Assembly: GCA_025210615.1 (NCBI GenBank)
Contig: JAOARJ010000002.1
Coordinates: 62,001 to 126,000, forward strand
Source of the DNA: Candidatus Altimarinota bacterium
GTDB taxonomy: Bacteria; Patescibacteriota; Gracilibacteria; BD1-5; UBA6164
Reading direction: 5' to 3'
DNA: 64,000 bases
Position 1 is the first letter of the stretch. Every line of letters begins with the position of its first letter. Below are positions 31,178 to 52,236 of the stretch, one piece after another. Both the position numbers and the translations under genes were made by a program. Below the pieces are notes generated by a model, which was not told where the DNA came from, made no database searches, and saw only the letters and a list, made by a program, of their open reading frames with translations.

Positions 31178-31335
31178 ATAAAAAATTTACAAAATAAAAT
31201 CTTGAGTAAAAATCACTCAAGATATTTATATTTATTTTTATTTATTTTGCAAATAAAAATTTATTTAAGTATATATTTATTGTAATTATATTCTTTTTTT
31301 ATATTTTTTCTTACTACTTATATAAAAAAACAAAA

Positions 31336-31369
31336 GCAATTAATCTCGTTTTAACACGAGATTAATTGC
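31336..31369. repeat. Long hairpin, copy 1 of a family upstream of rep sequences
   Basis: Perfect 13-bp arms GCAATTAATCTCG / CGAGATTAATTGC with an 8-nt loop. It is followed by GAAATATATTAAAACATAAAA, nearly the same as after copy 2 at 38454-38487. It lies about 37 bases before the rep remnant. It could be a replication-origin hairpin or a terminator. Confidence 0.7.
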
Positions 31370-31405
31370 GAGAAATATATTAAAACATAAAAATTAAATA
31401 AAAAT

Positions 31406-31492
31406 AAAATAGTATTTTTCTGACTTGATGGGGTAGAAATTTGCGCAAAATTTTTATACGAAGAAATCTTTGAAAAATGGATGAAATATTAA
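31406..31492 (+). pseudogene. Remnant of a Rep_trans initiator N-terminus
   Basis: A 28-codon frame (KIVFFGLDGVEICAKFLYEE) corresponds to residues 14-33 of the intact Rep at 38810. DNA similarity (AAAATAGTATTTTTCTGA) begins just before it. The frame stops at TAA 31490-31492 and nothing further of rep follows. It shows that a third related element was once present or recombined here. Confidence 0.75.
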
Positions 31493-38254: not shown

Positions 38255-38453
38255 AATTACAAAAAATTAATAGATAAAAATGCCGGCAAAAATAACTATA
38301 TAGTATTTAAAAATATAAGCAAATATTTTTATATAAAAAGTTTTGACTTTTGGTTTTTTAATTTCAAAATAATAAAAAAGTATATAATAAAAGAGAATGT
38401 ATACAAAAATAATATTTTTTTATTTTAGCAACACTTACACTCAAAAAACAAAA

Positions 38454-38487
38454 GCTATTAAGCTCGCTCTAGTACGAGGTTAATAGC
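38454..38487. repeat. Long hairpin, copy 2, upstream of rep 1
   Basis: Arms GCTATTAAGCTCG / CGAGGTTAATAGC (13 pairs, one G-T) with an 8-nt loop, followed by GAGATATATTAAAACATAAAA as in copy 1. It lies about 320 bases before the rep start. Loop and arms are nearly identical to copy 3 at 46244-46271. Confidence 0.7.
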
Positions 38488-38517
38488 AGGAGATATATTA
38501 AAACATAAAATTTAAAA

Positions 38518-38545
38518 TTGACAAAAATAGAAAAAACTATATAAT
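38518..38545 (+). promoter_or_regulatory. Strong promoter upstream of rep 1
   Basis: Perfect TTGACA (38518-38523) and perfect TATAAT (38540-38545) with a 16-bp spacer. It is about 265 bases before the rep ATG and is followed closely by a terminator hairpin. Confidence 0.75.
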
Positions 38546-40904: not shown

Positions 40905-42320
40905 ATGAAATCCCTAATATACTACCGTAAATCAACAGATAGAGATGATAAACAAGCAAACAGCTTGGAACATCAATTAAACAATTGTAGAAATACTGCA
41001 AGGCTTTTTGAACTGGAGATTTTTGAAGAAATAGGGGAAAGTAAGAGTGCGAAAACTGAATTCACTCGCGAATGATTTAATAAAATGATTGATTTATGTA
41101 AGAAGAAAAAAGTCGATTATATCATCATAGATGAACCTAAGAGACTTTCTAGAAATAATATTGATACTTCTAGAATAGTTGATTTAATGGATAAAAAACT
41201 AATAAAATGAATTCTCGCTACCGGAAGAAAACATATGGGCGATAATTCAAGAGATAAATTTTTATTACAACTATATTTATCGCTTTCTAAAATGGATAAT
41301 GAAGATAGAGCGAAAGATGTAAAAGATAAAATGGAAACAGCTGTTAAAAAATGACAATGGATGTGAAAGGCGGTTTTTGGTTATAAAAATGTCTGAACTA
41401 AATGAAAAAAGGATGTAGAATTAGTACCCGAAGAAGCTAGATTAGTTAAGAAAGCTTTCAAGATGAGAGTTAATTGAAAATCGCTACAAACTATCACAAA
41501 TTTTATAAATAATGAAATGTGATTTAACTGGACACCGGAAAGGACTAGAAAAATGCTTATGAATACCAAATATTATTGATTACAAAGCTTTTGAGATATA
41601 AAATGTAAACTTAATAGTCCTTGATATAAACCGATTATTTCAGAGGAATTATTCAATAAAGCGAATAAAATAGTGAGAACTATCCAAATTAGAGAAAGAC
41701 CGGATTTGCCGAAATATTTTAAAGGCTTATTAAAAGATACTGACGGAATTAATTTTTATCCTTACATAAAGAAAAATAAAGACTGAAAAACGTGAAATAT
41801 TTATTATCATAATTCTTGATACAAAAGCCAATATTATGTAAATATTAGTGAAAAGGCAATTTTTGAAGAGTTTGAAAATTATTTAAAAAACTTTAGTTTG
41901 CCAGCTTGAATTATGGAGTTATGTGAAGAGATGTTAAAAGATATCTTCAAAAATAACGTCATTGATAACGAAAAAGAAGTAAAAAGTGTTGAAAATAAAA
42001 TATTAAAGCAAGAAGAAAGATTAGAAAGTATTAAATTAAAATGGATTGATTGAAAATTAAATGATGAAGAGTATAAAAACTTCAAAAAATCATTTGAAAA
42101 AGATAAAAATGAATTAGAAAAAAATAGAGTAAATTTACTTCAAGAAAACACTAAAATTGATGAAAAAGTCAAAAGTTGTTTAGAAGTCTTGTTTTCGCTT
42201 TCTAATAAGTATTCTTGACTTTCTGATGAGAAAAAAGTAGAAGTTATAAAAATGATTTGTTTAGAACTTTTATTAAACACTAAAAAAGAGCTTCTGACAG
42301 GGAATACTCCACTACTATAA
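40905..42320 (+). CDS. Large serine recombinase 1 (nonsense-truncated C-terminus)
   Basis: A 471-residue site-specific recombinase. The N-terminal resolvase domain has IYYRKSTDRDDKQANSLEHQ with the nucleophile Ser in RKSTD, followed by IIDEPKRLSRN and the long E-helix region. The recombinase domain and zinc-ribbon-like/coiled-coil region are in the middle (KYFKGLLKDTDG, then a long Glu/Lys coiled coil from about 350). The gene ends LLTGNTPLL at TAA 42318-42320. The recombinase 2 gene has GAA at this point and continues SSKILNFSFGTP. A single G-to-T change therefore cuts off at least the last 12 residues. The recombinase may be impaired. Confidence 0.85.
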
Positions 42321-42356
42321 AGCTCTAAAATTTTAAATTTCTCTTTTGGTACTCCT
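42279..42356. repeat. 78-bp att-like segment, copy 1 (junction of elements 1 and 2)
   Basis: Identical at 74 of 78 positions to 52094-52171, although the recombinase sequences just upstream are diverged. It contains nested inverted repeats: AGAGCTT / AAGCTCT outside and GGA / TCC inside. It ends in CTCTTTTGGTACTCCT, which includes the 3' end of tRNA-Glu (reverse complement). It is the likely recombination site between the tandem elements. Confidence 0.75.
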
Positions 42357-42443
42357 TGAAAAATTATAGATTGAAAGTTTTTTAATGTAGTTTCTAAAGT
42401 AAAAATGGAAGATATTTTACAAATTGAGAAGTTGATGAAAAAA

Positions 42444-42470
42444 GCACTAGATTAAACTAGTGTTTTTTAT
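42444..42470. terminator. Terminator at the left end of element 2
   Basis: GCACTAG / CTAGTGT stem around 42444-42463, loop ATTAAA, then TTTTTATTTTTTT. It lies right after the TAA that closes the frame continuing from the recombinase, and overlaps the end of the convergent minus-strand gene at 42457. Confidence 0.8.
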
Positions 42471-42837
42471 TTTTTTGCATTAGATATTTAATTCAATGAT
42501 ATATTTTTATTATTTGCATAATTGATAATAAAATCATAAATAAAAGTCAAGCCTTTAAACTATTTATTTCTATATTAAATAAATGATTTAATCAAATTTC
42601 GTTAATATAAATTAAAATTATAATACTAAAAGTAATATTAAAAAATAATATTATTTTATATTTATTTAATTCTGCTTTTAATTCAAATATTAGAAACAAT
42701 ATAAAGATTGTAAAAACTCATAAAGTTCATTTCATAATATCAAGAGCAGTATTTCAATAAAAAATACTTTCCTCATATAATCATCATAAAAAAGCTATAT
42801 TAAGGAAATATATAGTAAAAAAAATTATAAATTTCAT
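42457..42837 (-). CDS. Small polytopic membrane protein
   Basis: A 126-residue protein from ATG at 42835-42837 (minus) to TAG at 42457-42459, using TGA for several glycines. Four hydrophobic helices are visible (FIIFFTIYFLNIAFLGG, VFTIFILFLIFEL, IILFFNITFSIIILIYI and AGLLFMILLSIMQII), ending with a basic tail QKNKKH. It is the last gene of the minus-strand cargo block behind the MuF-like gene. Membrane proteins of this type beside toxin-like genes are often immunity proteins, but this is inference. Confidence 0.65.
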
Positions 42838-42838
42838 A

Positions 42839-43253
42839 TTATTTAAAGTAAGTATTATAAATATCAGGATAAAATTTCCAGAGTAATTCTTTTTCTGCTT
42901 CTTGATACGCTTCTCATATTTTTTCAGGTTTTTCAATTGTTTTTCTAATCAATTATTAAAGCCCAATTTGGATAAATCAAATTTAAAAAATATAAATAAC
43001 TAAAAATATAAATTATATATAAGATATAAATAAAAATTGAGACAAATATAGTTTTTTTCTTTAAAAAATTTTTCTTGAAAAAATATAAAATAATAATTCA
43101 AAGTGGCATTATCCATCAAAACATAATGCCAAAAGCCATATAAGATATAAATGTTAAAGCAACAGTTTCGCTTGAATATAAAATTACAGTAGATAATACT
43201 ATCACAAAAATAACTAAAATTATTATCTTATTTTTTTTAATTATTTTTCTCAT
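42839..43253 (-). pseudogene. Frameshifted small membrane protein
   Basis: ATG at 43251-43253 (minus) opens a frame with two or three hydrophobic helices (IIILVIFVIVLSTVILYSS onward) that stops at TAG 42945-42947. A second frame continues with KTIEKPEKIGEAYQEAEKEL and ends at TAA 42839-42841, just before the next ATG. The span of 415 bases equals 138 codons plus one base, so one extra base near 42955 explains the break. Restored length is 137 residues. It is a decayed gene or an assembly error. Confidence 0.55.
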
Positions 43254-43614
43254 AAATTATTATTATTATTATTATTATTATTATTTAAATATTTTTCAAC
43301 TTCTTGATAATTTTCATTTCATACCCAAGTTCAATCTTCCTTTGGTTCTCAATATAAAAATAAATCTTTATTTTCAATGATTATATCTAAAATTTCTTCA
43401 TCAGTTTTATCTTTGTATTTTTCTCATAAACTTCTTCCAATTGAATTATTATACAAATCTATTATACAAGTTATTCAAGTATTTCAATCTTCGTATTCAT
43501 GGTAATCTCACATTTTTTTTGCGACTTCAGGTCAGAAATCTTTAGCATTTAATGCGTTCCGATAAGCGTGTCTAATTGCATCAGGTAGGACATTATTTGA
43601 GGGGCTTTAATCAT
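43241..43614 (-). pseudogene. Frameshifted DUF6973-like protein
   Basis: ATG at 43612-43614 (minus) opens a frame that fails after about 20 codons. A second frame contains SNNVLPDAIRHAYRNALNAK, GDYHEYEDGNTG and IDLYNNSIGRSLGEKY. This Asp/Arg/His pattern followed by an LxNNxxGR motif is like DUF6973 domains found in toxin-related contexts. Adding one base to the G4/C4 run near 43601-43604 joins the frames, and the span of 374 bases is one short of 125 codons. The C-terminus carries an Asn run from the ATT microsatellite. The family name is tentative. Confidence 0.55.
43256..43285. repeat. (ATT)10 trinucleotide microsatellite
   Basis: Ten perfect ATT units, read on the minus strand as a run of Asn codons at the C-terminus of the DUF6973-like gene. 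Length changes would add or remove Asn residues without shifting the frame. Confidence 0.9.
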
Positions 43615-43645
43615 ATTTTTTTAATTTTATTTAAATTACCAAATA

Positions 43646-43942
43646 TTAATTTCAAATAGGAAATAATATTATAAAAATTTTAGAAAAAATAAAGAGATAA
43701 ATTATATTAGAAAAATAAAACAAAATAATATATAAAATCAATTTTTTATTAAAAGGTTTTTTAAATAAAAGAAAATATAAAATAACTAAAATAGGAATAA
43801 CCCATCAATAATAAACTATAGAAAGTAGTAATACTATAAATATAAAAGATAAACTTTCTCCTAACAACAAAAATATAATTCAAATAATTATCCAAATTAT
43901 AATAAAAATTGCATATTTATTTTTGGGGATTAATTTTTTCAT
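43646..43942 (-). CDS. Small three-helix membrane protein
   Basis: A 98-residue protein from ATG at 43940-43942 (minus) to TAA at 43646-43648. Three hydrophobic stretches are visible (IFIIIWIIIGIIFLLLG, FIFIVLLLSIVYYGWVIPIL and LYIILFYFSNIIYLFIF). The start overlaps the end of the MuF-like gene by 26 bases, so translation is probably coupled. A role as immunity or escort protein for the MuF-like product is possible but unproven. Confidence 0.65.
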
Positions 43943-45602
43943 AAACTTTAGGGTTAAAATATTTTATAACTTCTTTATTTAAATCTTTTTTCATTGTTTT
44001 TTCAAATTCTCTTTTTGTTTTATTTCTTATATAATAATCTAAATATTTTTTTCAAATATCATCAATATTAATACTTTCATTTTGAGCTTCACTCATTAAA
44101 TTAATAAAAACATTATTTTTTTCTTCTTTTGTTTCTAGATAAGGTTTTAATTGAGAATAAACAGCTCAAGCTTTATAAAATCTCCTATCTCTGAATTCAT
44201 CTGTCAAATCTTTTGTTCCTTTAAATAAAAGTTCATACCCTTCTCATCACAAATTAATAAAATGTATATTAAATCAACTTTTATCTCAATTATATCAAAT
44301 AAAAAAGTTTCATACTTCATCTAGCTTAACTTTCTTTCAATATAAATTAACAAATCAATCTTCATCCACACATTTTTTAAAGTTTTCATCATTTTTAACA
44401 TCAAATTTTCAGTTAGTTTTATTATTTGGAATATAATTTACAATATTTGTTTCATTGTCGGCTTCTTTTAGTTTTTCTTCAAATAATTCTGTTATATCAT
44501 GATTTTTGATATTTTTTTCTTCTCTTTCCTTTCTTTTCCTCTCCTTTTCCGCTTCTTTTTTACGCTTTTCTTGCTGCTTTTGAATTCTCTCTTCTTCCAT
44601 TAAATCAGTAATCTGCTTATTCTTAAGTATATATTTTTCAATACTAAAGTCAAGATTTTCTTCAGTTTTAAACTCCAAATGGCATCTACATCCGTAATGT
44701 CAAGGTGGCGAAAAATGCCCACTAATGAAATTATCACTAAACGGAATATAGCCCTGCATCGCATTATATTCACAAATACTCTCAACTCTACTATCATTTT
44801 TGGTAATCCGTTTTTTGTATCATTTTAAATTATTTTCTTCTAAAAAAGCCTGAAAACAAGCTGTTTTATTATTATGAAAAAGCGTATTTATAATACAGTC
44901 GCAATAATTTTTATTTCTTTTTGAGTTGACAATTTTTTCTAATTCTTCTCAAATAACTTCCAAAAAATCAGGATTTTCTTTAAATTTATTAATAATTTTT
45001 TCAATATATTTTACTTGATTTTGATAAATATTTTTCGCTATTTCAAGAGGATTATTAGAAATTAATAAATCTTGAATACTATTTTGAAAATTATTTTTTG
45101 AAGATAAAAACTGCATTTTAGGTGTTTTTAAAAATCAATTTTCATCATATTTTCTAATATTTGGCAAAATTTTTTGATTATTTTCAGGAAAAATATTTAT
45201 TATTTCAGGTAATTTTTCCATTTTTGGTCATCAAAATATTTCATCAAGATTTTTATTATTTTCATTATTATTATTATTATTAGAATTTTGAGAATTATTT
45301 TGAGTTAAAAAACTCGGAAAATTTTCATCCCAAATTCATAAAACTTCTTTATTAATTCACAAAATATTACTTTTAGATTCTTCAGATTTTTCTGTGATTT
45401 TATTACTATTTATCGCATTTTTTCAAAGATTAATAATCTCTTCCAAATGCGGATTTAATACTGAAATAAAATTATTTTCGATATTTTTGTCATAAAAATT
45501 CTCTTCTCAAAAGTTTATTTTTTGATTAATTTTATTAATATTTTTTGAAGTTAAAATTTTAAATTTTTCTTCAAAATTATCATAGATTTTTCGGTTTAAC
45601 AT
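43917..45602 (-). CDS. MuF-like (phage head morphogenesis) protein with an extra C-terminal domain
   Basis: A 561-residue protein from ATG at 45600-45602 (minus) to TAA at 43917-43919. The first 200 residues are Asn/Lys-rich and helical. At residues 250-300 the sequence ESICEYNAMQGYIPFSDNFI followed by HFSPPGHYGCRCHLEF matches the end of the phage Mu gpF / minor head protein domain. A highly charged coiled coil (ERKRKEREEKN) follows. The C-terminal 200 residues are a separate domain (GEGYELLFKGTKDLTDEF, AGAVYSQLKPYLETK). MuF domains fused to a C-terminal effector are a known arrangement in phage-borne polymorphic toxins, which this resembles. The tip is not identified. Confidence 0.7.
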
Positions 45603-45691
45603 AAATAAAAGTTAAGTTTTAAAGTAACTTAAAACTTTAGAAAAAATACTAGAATTTTCAATGTCTTTTATTTTATGTTCATTATATTTTT

Positions 45692-46141
45692 TTAAAAAAA
45701 TTGTTGATTAATTTTTTTTGATGTTTTATTAAAAGTAACGTTAGAAGATTTTGAAGAATTAGAAACATTTTCCATTAACCAATATTTTAGCTTTCAATTC
45801 TTCTTTTTAACTAAAATTATTCTTAAATATGCTTCAATTAGTTGTATTCATAATGACTTATCTGCTTTTCAAGATTTATTTGAATTAGAAAAAGAAACGC
45901 AAGGAGGTGATCATGTAATAATATCAGAATCAGGAATTATTTCATTTATTTTCTCAGGAGTATCTAACTCTAATATATTTCCATGATAATGTCTAGCGTT
46001 AGGATGATTTAATTTATGTGTATCAATAGCTGGCTTCCACAAATCTAATCAAAAAATTATATCTATTCACTTTTGTCTAAATCACTCTGAAAATCAACCT
46101 GCTCAACAAAAAAAGTCTACAGATGTAAGTCTGTTTTTCAT
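45692..46141 (-). pseudogene. Truncated cytosine-C5 DNA methyltransferase
   Basis: A 149-residue frame from ATG at 46139-46141 (minus). It has motif I VDFFCGAGGFSEGFRQKG, a motif II-like GLDLWKPA, motif IV GSPPCVSFSNSNKSG with the catalytic cysteine, and WLMENVSN as motif VI. The target-recognition domain and motifs VIII-X are missing. After the TAA at 45692-45694 another frame stays open for about 30 codons, reachable by adding one base to the T7A7 tract, but it does not contain the missing motifs. The enzyme is probably inactive, leaving a relic of a modification system. Confidence 0.75.
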
Positions 46142-46243
46142 TATCATTTTTATTATAAAATTTATTAATATACAGATATTATTTAAAAAAAGAGTAAAGT
46201 CAAAATGAATTCCATTCTAATATGATAATTTTAAATATTTTCT

Positions 46244-46271
46244 ATTAAGCTCGCTCTAGTGCGAGCTTAAT
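46244..46271. repeat. Long hairpin, copy 3
   Basis: Perfect 11-bp arms ATTAAGCTCGC / GCGAGCTTAAT with loop TCTAGT. The left arm and loop match copy 2 (38454-38487). Here it sits between the minus-strand methyltransferase and the plus-strand gene at 46356 in element 2. Confidence 0.7.
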
Positions 46272-46355
46272 AAATCTGATATAAAATAAATTTGAAAAAT
46301 ATCTATTTTTATTTATTATCTATATGAAGAAATCTTTATATTTTAATTTTAAATT

Positions 46356-47519
46356 ATGCAAAACAAAAATAAAAATAATGTAAAAATAGAAGATATATTA
46401 CTATTTTTAAATAGATTTGATAAAGAAAAGTTTAATTTGAATACTGAAAAAATTCCACCATCAATGTTTTTTACTCATAAATGAAAAACATTAATTAATA
46501 AAAAACAAGTTTGACATATAGTAAATGATACTACACTAAGAAATTTTATTATTTTAATAAAACTATTTAATGAAAATTTCTTAAATATAGATATATTTAG
46601 TTATAAAATAAAAGATGAATGATTAAGACGCTTATTTAAACAATATGAAATAAATAATAATTTTTCTTGAATAACTCTTATTGATAGAAATTCTTTTTAT
46701 AAACCGACTTTATTAGAAAGAATATTTTGAATAAAAAAACATAAAGTAAAAATAAAAACTAAAGTAGATTTAAAAGCATTATTAGAAATACATTTTGATT
46801 ATTTTTTACAAAATATAACTTATTTAGATGACTTTTTAATGGAAGTTTATACTAGCTTTAGTTTTTTAGAATGAATATTGTTTTTTATAGAAGATAATCA
46901 AAATAAAACTAATTTTAATAAACAATTAAATGCCTTTTATAAACATATACAAGAACAAATTTGAAATAGAGAAAATTATATTAATTCAGTTTGTTTTTCT
47001 TTTAAAATAGAAGATTATATTAAAAATTATTGATATTTTTTTAAAATTGCAGATAAGTTAGAAGAAAATTGAATTTTAAAAATAAAAGATGTTTTTATTA
47101 AAGATAATTATATTACTTTTGAATTAGAGAAAATAAATAAATTTCATAAAGAAAATATATTGAAACTTTTTTATAATTCTGAATCTTTAGAATATATTAA
47201 ATGAGATTTTTATATTTTTTGAGAAAAAATACTTTTTAGAAATAAAAAAGATAAAATTTATAATATTTATAAATTAATTTTTGATTACTTTTCGGAAAAT
47301 AATGTTAATAAAGTAAGTTTATGAGATTTAGAAGAATATTATAAAAACAATAAAAATAATTATAATTCACCTAAAAATTTTAAAGTAGATTATGAATATT
47401 TTAGAAAAAGTTTAGATGAAAAAAATAAGGAAATTCAAGAAAAATTTAACTTAGATAATACTTTTATAGGAATTAATACAAAAGCTATACAATGCGTATA
47501 TTTCAATACGGAAAGTTAG
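46356..47519 (+). CDS. Hypothetical protein of element 2
   Basis: A 387-residue soluble protein from ATG 46356 (preceded by AAATT) to TAG 47517-47519, using TGA for most glycines. It is Lys/Asn/Phe-rich and largely helical, with a segment HKGKTLINKKQVGHIVND near residue 42 and KGDFYIFGEKILFRNKKDKI near 290. No signal peptide, membrane span or catalytic motif is apparent. It sits upstream of the origin-like region of the element and is not matched in element 1, so it is probably accessory. Confidence 0.6.
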
Positions 47520-47567
47520 TTTATTTCCGTTAATTCCGATGATTTTATAAAAATAAAACATACAATT

Positions 47568-47612
47568 GCACTCAAGCCAAACGGTTTATCCGTTGGCGAG
47601 GGTGTATTTTTT
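47568..47612 (+). terminator. Terminator after the 46356 gene
   Basis: GCCAA(A)CGG pairs with CCGTTGGC inside an outer GCACTC / GAGGGTG stem, followed by TATTTTTTAT. Confidence 0.7.
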
Positions 47613-47643
47613 ATATATCCGAAAATATTGCAATATTTTACTA

Positions 47644-47778
47644 GATTTTTTCTTCTTATGAGAAGTTTTCTTCAAATTGTAAATTATAGTCAAGTTTTGC
47701 TCTTTTTGACTGATATAAGGGCACTAAACTTGACGATAATCAATTTGAATATCATATATAATCTCATAAGAAAAAATC
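47644..47778. repeat. 135-bp imperfect inverted repeat, candidate replication origin of element 2
   Basis: Outer arms GATTTTTTCTTCTTATGAGA and TCTCATAAGAAAAAATC pair except for a CTT bulge. Inner arms CAAATTG...GTCAAGTTT and AAACTTGAC...CAATTTG also pair. The centre is about 25 bases. It lies about 100 bases before Rep 2. No equally large structure was seen before Rep 1. Confidence 0.75.
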
Positions 47779-47784
47779 AAAAAA

Positions 47785-47806
47785 CTCCCATACAATAATA
47801 TGGGAG
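47785..47806. other. Hairpin motif upstream of rep 2
   Basis: CTCCCATACAATAATATGGG plus AG, followed by CAGT, 69 bases before the rep 2 ATG. It corresponds to 38712-38733 in element 1, with the loop ACAATA conserved and stem bases changed in a pairing-preserving way. Confidence 0.55.
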
Positions 47807-47874
47807 CAGTTAACTAAAAATTAGTACTAAATTACTTTATATTAGTACTCGCGAGTCATTATTTATTAATAATT

Positions 47875-48933
47875 ATGACAAAAAATATATTAAAATTAAA
47901 TAAAATAATCCATCATTTTTGATTAGACCATTTAGAAATCTTTTGAACATTCAAAGATGAAAAATTATTTGATAAATTAGATTTTGATAACTCTAATTAT
48001 GGCGAATTTAATGACTATATTATAGAAAAACATCAAGCCCCAAAATACGCTTATAAAATAACTTTCAAACAAGATAATTATACTTTATTTGCGTACTATA
48101 AATGAAAAGAAAAAGCTGAAAAACAACCAGTCGCAACTAAAGATTATATCACTATTTATTCCACAGCTTTTAAATTACTTGAATATGAAGAAATATTAGG
48201 TTTTATCGAGCATTATCTAACTTTAAAACATTGTAGAAGGTTTGATATTTGCCTTGACCTTAGATTTGAAATAAACGAATTATTAAATAATTACTTTGAA
48301 AAAATCAAGACTTGAAGAGAGTTTAAAAAATCTTGAAAAATAGAAACGAGATATTATTGAGAAATGAAAAATTCTAAAAATAAAAGACAATTAATAAGAG
48401 TTTATAACAAAAAATTAGATATTCTAGAAAAAAGAAAATTTAATCTTTACTGAGATTATTTATTATTTGAAAATATGACTAGAGTTGAGCTTGAAATACG
48501 CCAAGAACTAGCTAAAGTAAGGAATTATAACGATGTTTTTGATAATAAATTGCTTATTTGAATTTTTAAAAATTATTTGTATAAATACACTAAAATTTTT
48601 GAAGAATTTCCTTGAGAAAAAATTACATTATACAGAGCTCCAAAAGTTAAATTAGACGATGAACTTTATCAAAGTTTAGTTTACAAAACGAAAAAAGAAG
48701 AAAGATTTATTTCATCAGCGAAAACAATTTTTAATCTTTGATTTTGTCCGATTAGAGTTTTACTTTGTGAGTGATATATAAAAGAAAAAACGAGATTAGC
48801 CCTTTGAATAGAGAAAATCGAAGATTTAATCAATAAAGAAAAGAAATTAATTGACAGAGCTTTTGAAGATAGATATTTCAGAGAAAACACGGAAAAAGTA
48901 TTATCTAACTTCTACAAATATGGAAAATTTTAG
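47875..48933 (+). CDS. Rep_trans family replication initiation protein 2
   Basis: A 352-residue rolling-circle initiator, intact counterpart of Rep 1. It contains HHFGLDHLEIFG near the N-terminus, CRRFDICLDLRFE, ETRYYGEMKNSKNKRQLIRV with YNKKLDI carrying the likely catalytic tyrosine, and NMTRVELEIRQELAK. The C-terminal part (RLALGIEKIEDLINKEKKLI) is what Rep 1 has lost through its frameshift. The TAG stop (48931-48933) overlaps the ATG of the small partner gene at 48920. The gene follows the inverted-repeat region. Confidence 0.88.
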
Positions 48934-49078
48934 GTTAGATAAAGAAAAATATATGGATAGACTGCAAGAAGTCTATCCTCAATGTAGCAAACAAGAATTA
49001 ACACAAATTTTACTTTTAAGACTAAGTTTTTGGGAAATGATAATTGATGATTTTGAAAATTTGGAGATTAATTATTAA
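48920..49078 (+). CDS. Small partner protein downstream of rep 2
   Basis: A 52-residue protein (ENFRLDKEKYMDRLQEVYPQ then CSKQELTQILLLRLSFWEM) related to the 44-residue protein at 39802-39936. The start ATG at 48920 lies inside the end of rep 2, so the two are translationally linked. It is helical and slightly acidic. Start upstream of 48920 is unlikely because the overlap arrangement is the same in both elements. Confidence 0.68.
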   Translation: MENFRLDKEKYMDRLQEVYPQCSKQELTQILLLRLSFWEMIIDDFENLEINY

Positions 49079-49087
49079 AAAAATGTA

Positions 49088-49115
49088 TTGAAAAATTTAT
49101 AATTTAAGGTATAGT
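49088..49115 (+). promoter_or_regulatory. Cargo promoter of element 2
   Basis: TTGAAA at 49088-49093, 16-bp spacer, TATAGT at 49110-49115, then AAATATTTTAATCTTTAA. Same block as 39942-39969. Confidence 0.7.
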
Positions 49116-49149
49116 AGGAAAAATATTTTAATCTTTAATTTTTGTAAAT

Positions 49150-49611
49150 ATGACTAAAATTCTTCTAGTAAGATTTGAAAAAAAAGTACTACATTACATT
49201 ATATCTGAAATAGACAAGGATTTAATAATTATAGATAAAAATAAAATCTCTTTTAATGATAGTTTAACAGATTGAGAAAAGTATAAAAAAATTTTAGACG
49301 AATTGTTAATAATAAAGGAAAAATATGATATTGAAGAAGTTTTATATCAATGATCTTTAAAGCCGTTCAGATGATGTATAGATGAAGTTAGATATTGAAA
49401 TGAGTGTATTTTAGATTTATTTTGTTATCAAAACAGAATAGAATGTTTAAAATTAAATAAAAATATTGTTGCAAAAAAAGTATGAATAAAATTGAAAGAT
49501 GTTAACATTTTATTAGAAAGAAAGAAAATAGAAATAGTTGATAAATATAAAATCACTAAATCTGATATTTTAATAGAAATATTAATTCTAGTTTTAATTA
49601 TTAAGTTTTAA
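49150..49611 (+). CDS. Hypothetical cargo protein upstream of the kinase
   Basis: A 153-residue protein directly behind the conserved cargo promoter, with five bases between its TAA and the kinase ATG. It begins with a beta-strand-like TKILLVRFEKKVLHYIISE and contains VLYQGSLKPFRGCIDEVRYG and KNIVAKKVGIKLKDVNILLE. The pattern is faintly like an RNase H-fold (RuvC-like) domain, but catalytic acids cannot be assigned with confidence. The C-terminus is hydrophobic (ILIEILILVLIIKF) and may bind membrane. Partnership with the kinase is inferred from the spacing. Confidence 0.62.
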
Positions 49612-49616
49612 AAATT

Positions 49617-50693
49617 ATGGAATTTGAATTACCTAGTAATTTGAGGTTTATAAAAGAATTATGAAAGTGAGGTTTTTGAAATGTTATTTTATGTCAGAAC
49701 ATTTGTTTAAATAATACATTACAAGCTGTTAAAATTATTATAAATAATTCCCCTAATGATAAAGAAAGAAAAAACAAAGAAGAAATACTAAAACAATTAA
49801 AAGATAATATTTTCGAGGCTTCCATTCAAGCGTATTTAAACGATTCTGATTATATTGTAAATATTTATGAAGCAGAACCAACTGATGATTGAAATTTTTT
49901 AATTCAAATGGAGTTTTTGGAACAATGAAGTCTTGAAAAAATATTAAATGAAAATGGTTTTTTGAATGTTGATGAAGTTTTAAAAATAGCAAAATGTATA
50001 TCTTTTGCATTGAGTTATGCACATGCTAAAAAAATTTTACATTTAGATATAAAGCCATGAAATATTTTAAAAGAAAATAGTGATGTATATAAATTGTCTG
50101 ATTTTTGATTATCAGGAATAAAAAACTCTTTTTGAAAGACTAATTTTAGAAGTATTTATGAGCTCAATGTTACACCAGAATATCTATCATGAGATAAAGA
50201 GGCAACAGAACAAAGTGATATATACATGTTTTGAATAACTTTATATAGACTTTTAAATTGACCTTTATTTGTATTAAAGCAATTTAGGGAATGAAATGTT
50301 AAACAAAAAACAATAGATTGAAAATTTCCAAATAGAAACAAATATTTACCGCATATTCCCAGTAGAATAATAAGAATAGTTAATAAATGTTTAAATGTAG
50401 ATCTAAATAAGAGATATAAAAATATGTTAGAGATTAGACAAGATTTATGAAAAATTAATTGTAGTTACATTTGGAAAAAAAAGAATATTAGTAATAATAG
50501 GTTACACTGGGAGTGTTTTCAAAATAATGTGAAAAAATTTGATTTAAAATGCGAAATAAATGAGAAAGGAATACGGGATCAAAAGTTAACTAGATTTCCT
50601 TCTAATAGAAAAATAAAAAAATATTGTATTAGTAAGAAAACCTATAAACAACTGGAAAAAGAAATTAAAAAAGTATTTAATGATTTTTTTTAA
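49617..50693 (+). CDS. Serine/threonine protein kinase (cargo of element 2)
   Basis: A 358-residue Hanks-type kinase. Motifs in order are the G-loop LGKGGFGNV at residues 15-23 (several glycines TGA-encoded), AVKII with the ATP-binding lysine, HLDIKPGNIL (catalytic loop with Asp), SDFGLSG (DFG), TPEYLSGDK (APE-like) and SDIYMFGITLYRLLNG. All key residues are present. After the kinase domain about 80 residues form a basic tail with YIWKKKN and CEINEKGIRD that is unassigned. It has no membrane span, so it acts in the cytoplasm. Kinases in mobile-element cargo often act in phage defence or in regulation; which applies here is unknown. Confidence 0.9.
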
Positions 50694-50716
50694 AATTACA
50701 AAATAATATAAAAATT

Positions 50717-52225
50717 ATGAAAACAATAATATACTACCGTAAATCAACGGACAGAGATGATAAACAAGCAAACAGCTTGGAACATCAACTCACAAACTGC
50801 AGGCGCGTTGCTGAAAAATATAACCTTGAAATTTTCAAGGAAATAGGGGAAAGTAAAAGCGTGAAAACAGAGTTTACAAGGGCTTGATTTAATGAATTAA
50901 TAGACCTTTGTAAAAAATATAAAATCGATTTTATCATTATTGATGAACCGAAAAGATTATCAAGAAATAATATTGATACGAGCCGTATTATAGACCTTAT
51001 GGATAAAAATATTATCAAAGGTGTATTGGCTACAAGTAGGGAATACAGAAGTGATAATTCTAGAGATAAATTCTTATTACAACTGGATTTATCATTATCA
51101 AAAATGGACAATGAAGATAGAAGTAAAGATGTAAAAGACAAAATGGAAACTTGTATTAAAAATACTAAAAGATTCCTATCTAGAGCGCCTTATTGATATA
51201 AAAATATCACGATTAAAAAATGACATAAAGATATTATATTAGATAAAAAAGAGGCTAAAATTATTAAGGAAATATTTGATTTAAGGTGTGAGCATAAATC
51301 TTTTTGAAAAATAGCTTTAATGCTTAAAGAAAAATATTGAGATACTTTAAATATTAGATTAGAAGCTAATAGGATACAAAAAATTATTACTAAAAAATTC
51401 TATTATTGAGTTTTTGAGTGGAACGGACAAGAAGTAATTTGAAGCCATAAACCGATTATTTCTAAAGAAACTTTTGATAAAGCAAATTGATTTAAATGAA
51501 TTTTTGAAACTAAAAAAACGCAAGAAAAGCAAGAAAAATGAACTAGATTATATCACTTGAAATGATTTATAAAAGATACTTCTTGAATTAATCTTTGCGC
51601 TTATCAAAAGGCTGGTCATACATATTATATTAATCAATATAGAAGCAATGAAAAGCTAAATATTAGAGAAGATATTATTTTTGATAAGTTTTGAGAATAT
51701 CTAAAAAATTGTGAAATAAATAATGAAACTTTAGAAAGCATTGATAAAGACTTGATATTAGATTTATTAAAGAAAAAGAAACTTGAGAATAACGAAAATC
51801 AAATTGATTATGAAAAAGAAATTGAAAAATTAAAAAATAAACAAGAAAATTTACTTGATATGAGATTAGAAAACAGAATTAATGAAGATTTATTTTTGTT
51901 AAAAAATAACAAAATAGAAGAAAATATTAGATTATTAAATGAACAAAAAAACACTAAGAAAAAAGATAATTTTGAAGAAAGAGTCCTAAAAATAATTGAA
52001 CTCACTCCAAGCCTTTATACAAGCTATAATTTAGCAAATAAGCAGTTAAAATCAAAGATTATTAGAAAACTTCAGATTGAACTTTTAGTAGGTACTAAAA
52101 AAGAGCTTCTGACAGCGGATACTCCACTACTAGAAAGCTCTAAAATTTTGAATTTCTCTTTTGGTACTCCTACGGGGAATTGAACCCCGGTTTCCGCCGT
52201 GAGAGGGCAGCGTCCTAGCCACTAG
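50717..52225 (+). CDS. Large serine recombinase 2, reading into the tRNA-Glu gene
   Basis: A 502-residue recombinase expected to integrate and excise element 2. The catalytic domain (IYYRKSTDRDDKQANSLEHQ, IIDEPKRLSRNNIDTSR) is nearly the same as in recombinase 1 at protein and DNA level, while the rest is diverged. The recombinase domain has PIISKETFDKAN. A Cys pair typical of the zinc ribbon is weak (SCGINLCAYQK region with GHTYYINQ), and a Glu/Lys coiled coil follows. The last residues after SSKILNFSFGTP are read antisense through tRNA-Glu to TAG at 52223-52225. In the excised circle the frame would instead read into 42357-42455. Confidence 0.85.
52094..52171. repeat. 78-bp att-like segment, copy 2 (element 2 / tRNA-Glu junction)
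   Basis: Direct repeat of 42279-42356 with four mismatches, lying in the 3' end of the recombinase 2 gene. Its last ten bases (TGGTACTCCT) are the reverse complement of the CCA end and acceptor strand of tRNA-Glu. After base 52171 the two copies diverge completely. Confidence 0.8.
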
Positions 52226-52236
52226 ACGATAGGAGC
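52162..52236 (-). tRNA. tRNA-Glu (anticodon CTC)
   Basis: Minus-strand gene starting GCTCCTATCGTCTAGTGG at 52236. Acceptor stem GCTCCTA pairs with TAGGAGT; the anticodon loop CTCTCAC is closed by CTGCC/GGCGG; the T arm is CCGGGGTTCAATTCCCCG. CCA is encoded (52162-52164). The 3' end serves as the attachment site of element 2, so integration restores an intact tRNA. The recombinase frame overlaps it on the other strand. Confidence 0.95.

Follow-up and report, generated by a model that had tools for sequence, protein, structure and literature searches.

The tRNA-facing end of serine-recombinase elements in Gracilibacteria probably combines coding sequence, a tRNA terminator and an integration site

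Two tandem elements at a tRNA-Glu gene

The window, by which we mean the whole 64,000-nucleotide stretch analysed here, is read correctly only with genetic code 25 (TGA = Gly, Gracilibacteria-type), and the named relatives are Candidatus Gracilibacteria MAGs; all readings given below are drawn from MAG sequences. The following genes and features are central to the locus.

40905..42320, + strand: rec1, large serine recombinase of element 1 (code 25; Pfam Resolvase 1.9e-19, Recombinase 5.4e-12)
42279..42356: 78-bp segment copy 1, junction of element 1 (left) and element 2 (right)
42357..52171: element 2, whose cores lie 9,815 bp apart (the core repeat matches at 25/26 positions over that spacing)
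50717..52225, + strand: rec2, large serine recombinase of element 2 (Pfam Resolvase 3.3e-18, Recombinase 9.7e-15; PHROG integrase 7.5e-51)
52094..52171: 78-bp segment copy 2, junction of element 2 and tRNA-Glu
52162..52236, - strand: tRNA-Glu(CTC), the integration target, adjoining rec2

Two elements lie in tandem in the tRNA-Glu(CTC) gene, and each 78-bp copy is the tRNA-proximal end of one of them. The rec1 frame stops at a TAA codon (42318-42320) within copy 1, and the rec2 frame, in the integrated form, enters the antisense of tRNA-Glu. Core matching over ~62 kb upstream did not locate the left end of element 1, and the native terminator of the window itself was therefore not seen.

Both recombinases carry a Resolvase catalytic domain followed by a Recombinase domain, each above its Pfam cut-off, and the catalytic serine S10 of the N-terminal motif IYYRKSTD was invariant in every sequence of our alignments A1 and A4. 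A structural model of the relative L136 contained long helices (338-385 and 391-414), as in the coiled-coil region of large serine integrases, and the best PDB matches were YokA and the A118 integrase. The motif ELxIxxKKEL, modelled as strands at L136 454-469, is conserved throughout the recombinase family. Assignment to the SCC cassette chromosome recombinases (Ccr) was rejected, with a CcrA score of 49.8 bits against a curated NCBIfam cut-off of 700, and the curated XisF cut-off was likewise not reached. As regards attP x attB recombination, the forms seen were integrated products and displaced host ends only.

Element 2 further encodes a protein (43917-45602, - strand) that weakly matches phage portal/minor-capsid sequences and whose C-terminal part contains an Ntox44 toxin domain; the element also carries a truncated C-5 cytosine methyltransferase gene (45692-46147, - strand). 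A repeated inverted-repeat sequence, CTATTAAGCTCG..CGAGCTTAATA, was found at 31325-31412, 38443-38530 and 46242-46272, upstream of related ORFs (38810, 47875); it may be an origin of replication, and near 31.3 kb a third element may have left a remnant.

A class-wide search returned a recombinase match in 138 of 353 genomes, including a set of close code-25 relatives. The 3' ends of the latter lie at tRNA-Glu, Arg, Cys, Lys or Trp genes, with the frame running antisense into the tRNA, and most encode a KKEL-like motif just before the core, the KKEL AAAAAA run being a T-tract on the tRNA-sense strand that abuts a hairpin. Standard-code Patescibacteria recombinases of the same family (L155, L160, L161, L163, L168, L172-L174, L176, L177 and L179) likewise have their ends at tRNA-Gln, Ser or Ala genes, so that tRNA targeting by serine recombinases looks widespread in Patescibacteria. 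Recombinases that share 48-55% identity with rec2 and contain 12-24 TGA codons in frame (L136, L138 and L139) occur on contigs bearing the labels Campylobacterales, Motiliproteus sp. MSK22-1 and Arcobacter; these contigs are probably Gracilibacteria-derived, or else reflect transfer across genetic codes.

Conservation of the 78-bp pair

The original prediction described a 78-bp segment far more alike between the two copies than the sequence before it, and this description was confirmed. The copies at 42279-42356 and 52094-52171 differ at 4 of 78 positions (42301 G/C, 42303 A/G, 42318 T/G and 42335 A/G), while the recombinase genes just upstream are diverged, at ~50% identity. Ungapped identity per 26 positions on the same diagonal was 10-17 upstream of 42256, 22-25 across the segment and 3-5 after it, and the probability of at least 74 matches in 78 given a 57% background is ~5e-14. 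The inverted repeats are likewise present as described, with AGAGCTT at 52102-52108 pairing with AAGCTCT at 52135-52141 around an inner GGA/TCC stem, and the last bases of the segment, TGGTACTCCT, are antisense to the 3' end of tRNA-Glu(CTC) with its CCA. No third copy of the 78-mer was found in the genome.

That DNA rather than protein is under constraint, as had been proposed, was borne out. From position 460 onward, 21-22 of the 22-23 codons for residues shared by rec1 and rec2 are identical, compared with 53-76% in the rest of the two genes, which is near the expectation from codon usage. In copy 1 the 36 untranslated bp that follow the TAA codon match copy 2 at 35 positions, so the constraint is not purely on protein, and in a relative (G121:C62) conservation extends past a frameshift. 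A protein-level cause, in which a conserved KKEL beta-hairpin at the recombinase C-terminus would account for the conservation, could draw on the family-wide ELxIxxKKEL motif and on its strands in the L136 model. The segment nevertheless survives where the recombinase has been lost, which, together with the synonymous conservation and the persistence past stop codon and frameshift, led us to reject a purely protein-level cause and to regard this explanation as very improbable.

The near identity of this particular pair is a separate matter. Other pairs are 72-85% identical, against 95% for these two copies, and the near-complete codon identity lies above the family's ~0.7 (p ~0.003). Conservation is also not confined to the segment: rec1 and rec2 are unusually alike over their first 30 codons (83-88% at the nucleotide level), and rec1 is a mosaic whose first 145 residues and tail are nearest to rec2's group and whose middle is nearest to L069/L079/L087. 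Recent common descent, or gene conversion between the tandem recombinase genes, therefore comes close to an even call as a contribution to the pair's identity, beside constraint or instead of it; the mosaicism or gene conversion probably adds to constraint. What descent and conversion leave unexplained are the shuffle test, covariation, strand bias and displaced terminators described below, which recur in many genomes. We conclude that the constraint is family-wide, with exchange between the lineages of the two elements added here, and that both most likely act.

A predicted antisense terminator

The inverted repeat had been ascribed to recombinase binding. On the tRNA-sense strand it takes instead the form of an intrinsic terminator:

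52097..52143, - strand: predicted antisense intrinsic terminator for tRNA-Glu, within the rec2 coding sequence (hairpin AGAGCTT...AAGCTCT, then T6)
42282..42328, - strand: the same predicted terminator hairpin in copy 1 (shuffle test and folding)

The last ~105 nt of each gene were recoded in 100 shuffles with synonymous codons drawn from the gene's own usage, a null that takes codon choices as independent. The hairpin and T-tract of copy 2 scored -17.0 against a null mean of -3.9 (0/100 shuffles; -17.5 kcal/mol, z -3.8) and those of copy 1 scored -12.9 against -3.4 (0/100; -13.4 kcal/mol, z -2.8). An antisense hairpin with T-tract was found in 22 of 26 recombinases, covering Glu, Arg, Cys, Lys and Trp targets, with at most 3 of 100 shuffles, and mostly none, equal or better. 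Among these 26, L081 was borderline (6/100), L092 and L095 gave no hairpin and T signal, and L097 did not rise above its own null.

The strand that folds better is that of the tRNA transcript in 34 of 36 junctions, by a mean of 4.8 kcal/mol, compared with 216 of 469 windows in which the antisense strand folded better elsewhere in the genes (p ~7e-10). In group b, ten hairpins in the same register had 97.5% of cells paired, and both partners had changed in 5 of 12 pairs (GAG/CTC to CAG/CTG, for instance); the covariation score was reached by none of 500 shuffles and register slides failed, with the caveat that these sequences are related. Covariation was counted in group b only; in group a the GAC-type and GAG-type hairpins lie one base apart in register. 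Across relatives, the comparison of recombinase 3' ends that the original prediction had called for yielded no 78-mer conserved throughout the family; at that scale the structure and the KKEL/T-tract are what is preserved. The inverted repeat sits 20-60 bp from the core, varies in sequence with compensating changes and is followed directly by the T-tract on the tRNA-sense strand, and the hairpin is retained past the frameshift in G121:C62.

Element-free tRNA-Glu genes carry a native hairpin-T terminator shortly after CCA, and the stable hairpin with its immediate T-tract occupies this same position, downstream of the tRNA on the transcribed strand. We infer from these sequence features that tRNA transcripts end at the hairpin in vivo. 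As a negative control, related standard-code Patescibacteria recombinases with tRNA-Gln or tRNA-Ser targets were tested and mostly lacked the terminator. It is thus characteristic of the code-25 clade rather than produced by the test, and targeting of a tRNA does not in itself require it.

The att arm and core

The part of the segment nearest to the tRNA behaves differently.

52144..52171, + strand: putative att half-site, an ~18-bp arm ending ..AATTTCTCTTT plus the core TGGTACTCCT (tRNA 3' end with CCA), common to far ends and empty sites
42329..42356, + strand: counterpart of this arm and core in copy 1, forming the left att of element 2

These last ~28 bp, arm and TGGTACTCCT together, are common to the recombinase end, the far ends and some empty sites, and they alone look like att sequence. 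Left ends diverge after GGTAC, for which reason the crossover is placed near it, its exact position there being our reading of the alignments. In six reconstructed attP sites no palindromic centre strong enough to place the dinucleotide was found, with only 9-13 of ~23 matches. Binding by the recombinase to the inverted repeat and the whole 78 bp, as an attP arm or accessory site, would find some encouragement in the shared ~28 bp and in a weak inverted repeat, AATTTCTC/GAAAAATT, that flanks the core of the reconstructed attP of element 2 with 13 of 24 matches. Yet among elements at a common tRNA the stem varies in sequence with compensating changes, and its register differs from group to group. 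Wobble pairs are favourable on just one of the strands, the palindromes in the reconstructed attP sites are weak, and the hairpin lies beyond the about +/-25 bp expected of a serine integrase attP. Binding may thus cover at most the ~28 bp beside the tRNA (52144-52171), the inverted repeat behaving as a terminator, and we consider it unlikely that binding explains the conservation as a whole.

Displaced terminators and small cassettes

A native-looking hairpin-T terminator was found directly before the core at the far ends of elements in eight genomes (G101, G102, G103, G104, G105, G109, G111 and G119), and in G101 and G105 it is one and the same displaced terminator with different elements inserted. 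Integration therefore replaces the terminator of the tRNA with one borne by the element, and in recombinase-bearing elements the predicted replacement is written antisense in the recombinase gene. The terminator end is kept without an adjoining recombinase in G105, G111 and G123; the 2.1-kb insert of G105 has lost the recombinase but keeps its last ~40 codons with hairpin and arm. In G107, recombinase-less cassettes are separated by four left ends within 2.5 kb, and their junction hairpins differ.

Further cases were noted in passing. The four left ends of L238 (G107:C6, 7109-9648) lie 0.56-1.2 kb apart and bound small recombinase-less cassettes, one with a NUDIX-like ORF, in an apparent cassette array; another contig of G107 ends at tRNA-Glu. 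In G085:C3 (L077, 1194-1265) a 23-codon recombinase N-terminal remnant precedes by ~190 bp a left-end junction that keeps the hairpin tail, this element being internally deleted with both ends retained. The 2.9-kb insert of G119:C43 (L100, 1861-4750) has near-identical terminators at its far end and beside the tRNA.

Proposed organisation of the segment

The overlap, structure, synonymous constraint, covariation, strand bias, displaced native terminators and tandem arrangement, all as read from sequence, make us fairly confident that the 78-bp segment is the tRNA-facing end of large-serine-recombinase elements that insert at tRNA genes, a compressed multifunctional junction that includes a tRNA terminator. 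Counting from the tRNA, the last ~10 bp would restore the acceptor end of tRNA-Glu with CCA and hold the crossover core. The next ~18 bp would form the recombinase-side att arm, resembling the sequence that naturally follows the tRNA. In the next ~47 bp, the hairpin and T-tract on the tRNA-sense strand would end the tRNA transcript, the host terminator having been pushed to the far end of the element. The other strand is recombinase coding sequence throughout (..KKELL..TPLLESSKILNFSFGTP), and in the circular element its frame would continue through the core into the left end. The likely benefit would be intact tRNA expression, with no antisense transcription from the tRNA promoter into the element.

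A recombinase frame that crosses the core

At left ends the recombinase frame remains open past the core and leads into conserved tails in two recombinase groups. In the window this region comprises:

42354..42452, + strand: C-terminal extension PGKIIDGKFFNVVSKVKMEDILQIEKLMKKALD encoded at the left end of element 2, continuing the recombinase frame in the circular form of the element
42439..42468, + strand: predicted intrinsic terminator where the extension stops, a 12-bp stem at the stop codon followed by a T-rich tail

The tails PEKFDIRTFKKELSRLNIEDLREFHKFIKKLT (L136), PEKFCVRTFREYLRKIDFEKLREFYKILKI (G103 left end), PGKIIDGKFFNVVSKVKMEDILQIEKLMKKALD (window) and WYSGERGMRTIGLLYDYV.. (group b) are most conserved at second codon positions (0.83, against 0.63 and 0.59), and a profile built from six tails matched further left ends, for example in G107, G085, G117 and G090 (E 1e-10 to 4e-7). 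In the full-length L136 model, in which few sequences cover the tail, two confident tail helices follow a low-confidence linker at the core. A universal C-terminal tail was rejected: its length varies, there is almost none in some groups, and some left ends add few residues (LKKIILELL in L134; short in L071) or stop right after the core (L200/L202).

Since the recombinase frame crosses the core into conserved left-end tails, attP would lie inside the recombinase ORF and integration would swap the C-terminus. As judged from integrated element ends, the frames of two groups appear to continue past the core in this way; an intact circular element was not seen. In circular element 2 the predicted junction ..TCTCTTTTGGTACTCCTTGAAAAATTATAG.. 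after the rec2 tail would give a recombinase with a 33-residue extension. It is conceivable, and we put it forward tentatively, that this bacterial serine integrase divides its own gene when it integrates and that the division acts as a switch. The circular form would bear a tail of C-terminal helices, and integration would exchange it for an antisense-tRNA tail while also supplying the tRNA with a new terminator; cassettes that lack a recombinase but share these ends (G107, G105 and G117) would be mobilised in trans and form arrays at tRNA genes.

Relation to known systems

Large serine integrases (phage A118 Int, SPbeta YokA/SprA, phiC31 and staphylococcal Ccr) share with the present enzymes the Resolvase and Recombinase domains, Ser10 and the long coiled-coil; here, by contrast, there are many tRNA targets, the frame crosses the att core and an antisense tRNA terminator lies in the coding sequence. 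The composite SCC islands of staphylococci resemble the locus in their serine recombinases and in the tandem arrangement of elements at a single gene's 3' end, but their target is rlmH and not a tRNA, and we know of no comparable overlap of gene, att and terminator in them. A change of C-terminus through an attP within a repressor gene is familiar from mycobacteriophages. In the integration-dependent immunity of these phages attP lies in the repressor gene, and integration alters the C-terminus of this regulatory protein (PMC4557955); the likeness lies in the changed C-terminus, of a repressor there and of a recombinase here.

Suicidal (SSV-type) integrases, in which att lies within the integrase gene and splits it on integration, have been described as exclusive to Archaea (PMC8371274). 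They are tyrosine recombinases that lose their catalytic part, whereas here a serine recombinase in a bacterial genome would lose a short C-terminal tail only; it works alike but is not a member of that class. With tRNA-targeting islands that use tyrosine integrases (Islander type), the entered tRNA gene is restored and the original fragment displaced (PMC4383910). Restoration of the tRNA gene is common to both, and here the terminator would be restored in addition, antisense to the recombinase. A literature search on serine integrases with tRNA sites and terminators and on Patescibacteria, in which subscription journals were mostly outside coverage, found no description of such an arrangement.

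On this reading, one short stretch of DNA would carry the end of a protein-coding gene, an antisense tRNA terminator and an integration site, which would explain how elements can enter a tRNA gene repeatedly without damage to its expression. Gene-splitting integrases, hitherto described as exclusively archaeal tyrosine enzymes, would be extended to bacterial serine recombinases, and the signature of left-end tail, terminator and core may offer a simple route to small mobile cassettes in candidate-phyla bacteria.
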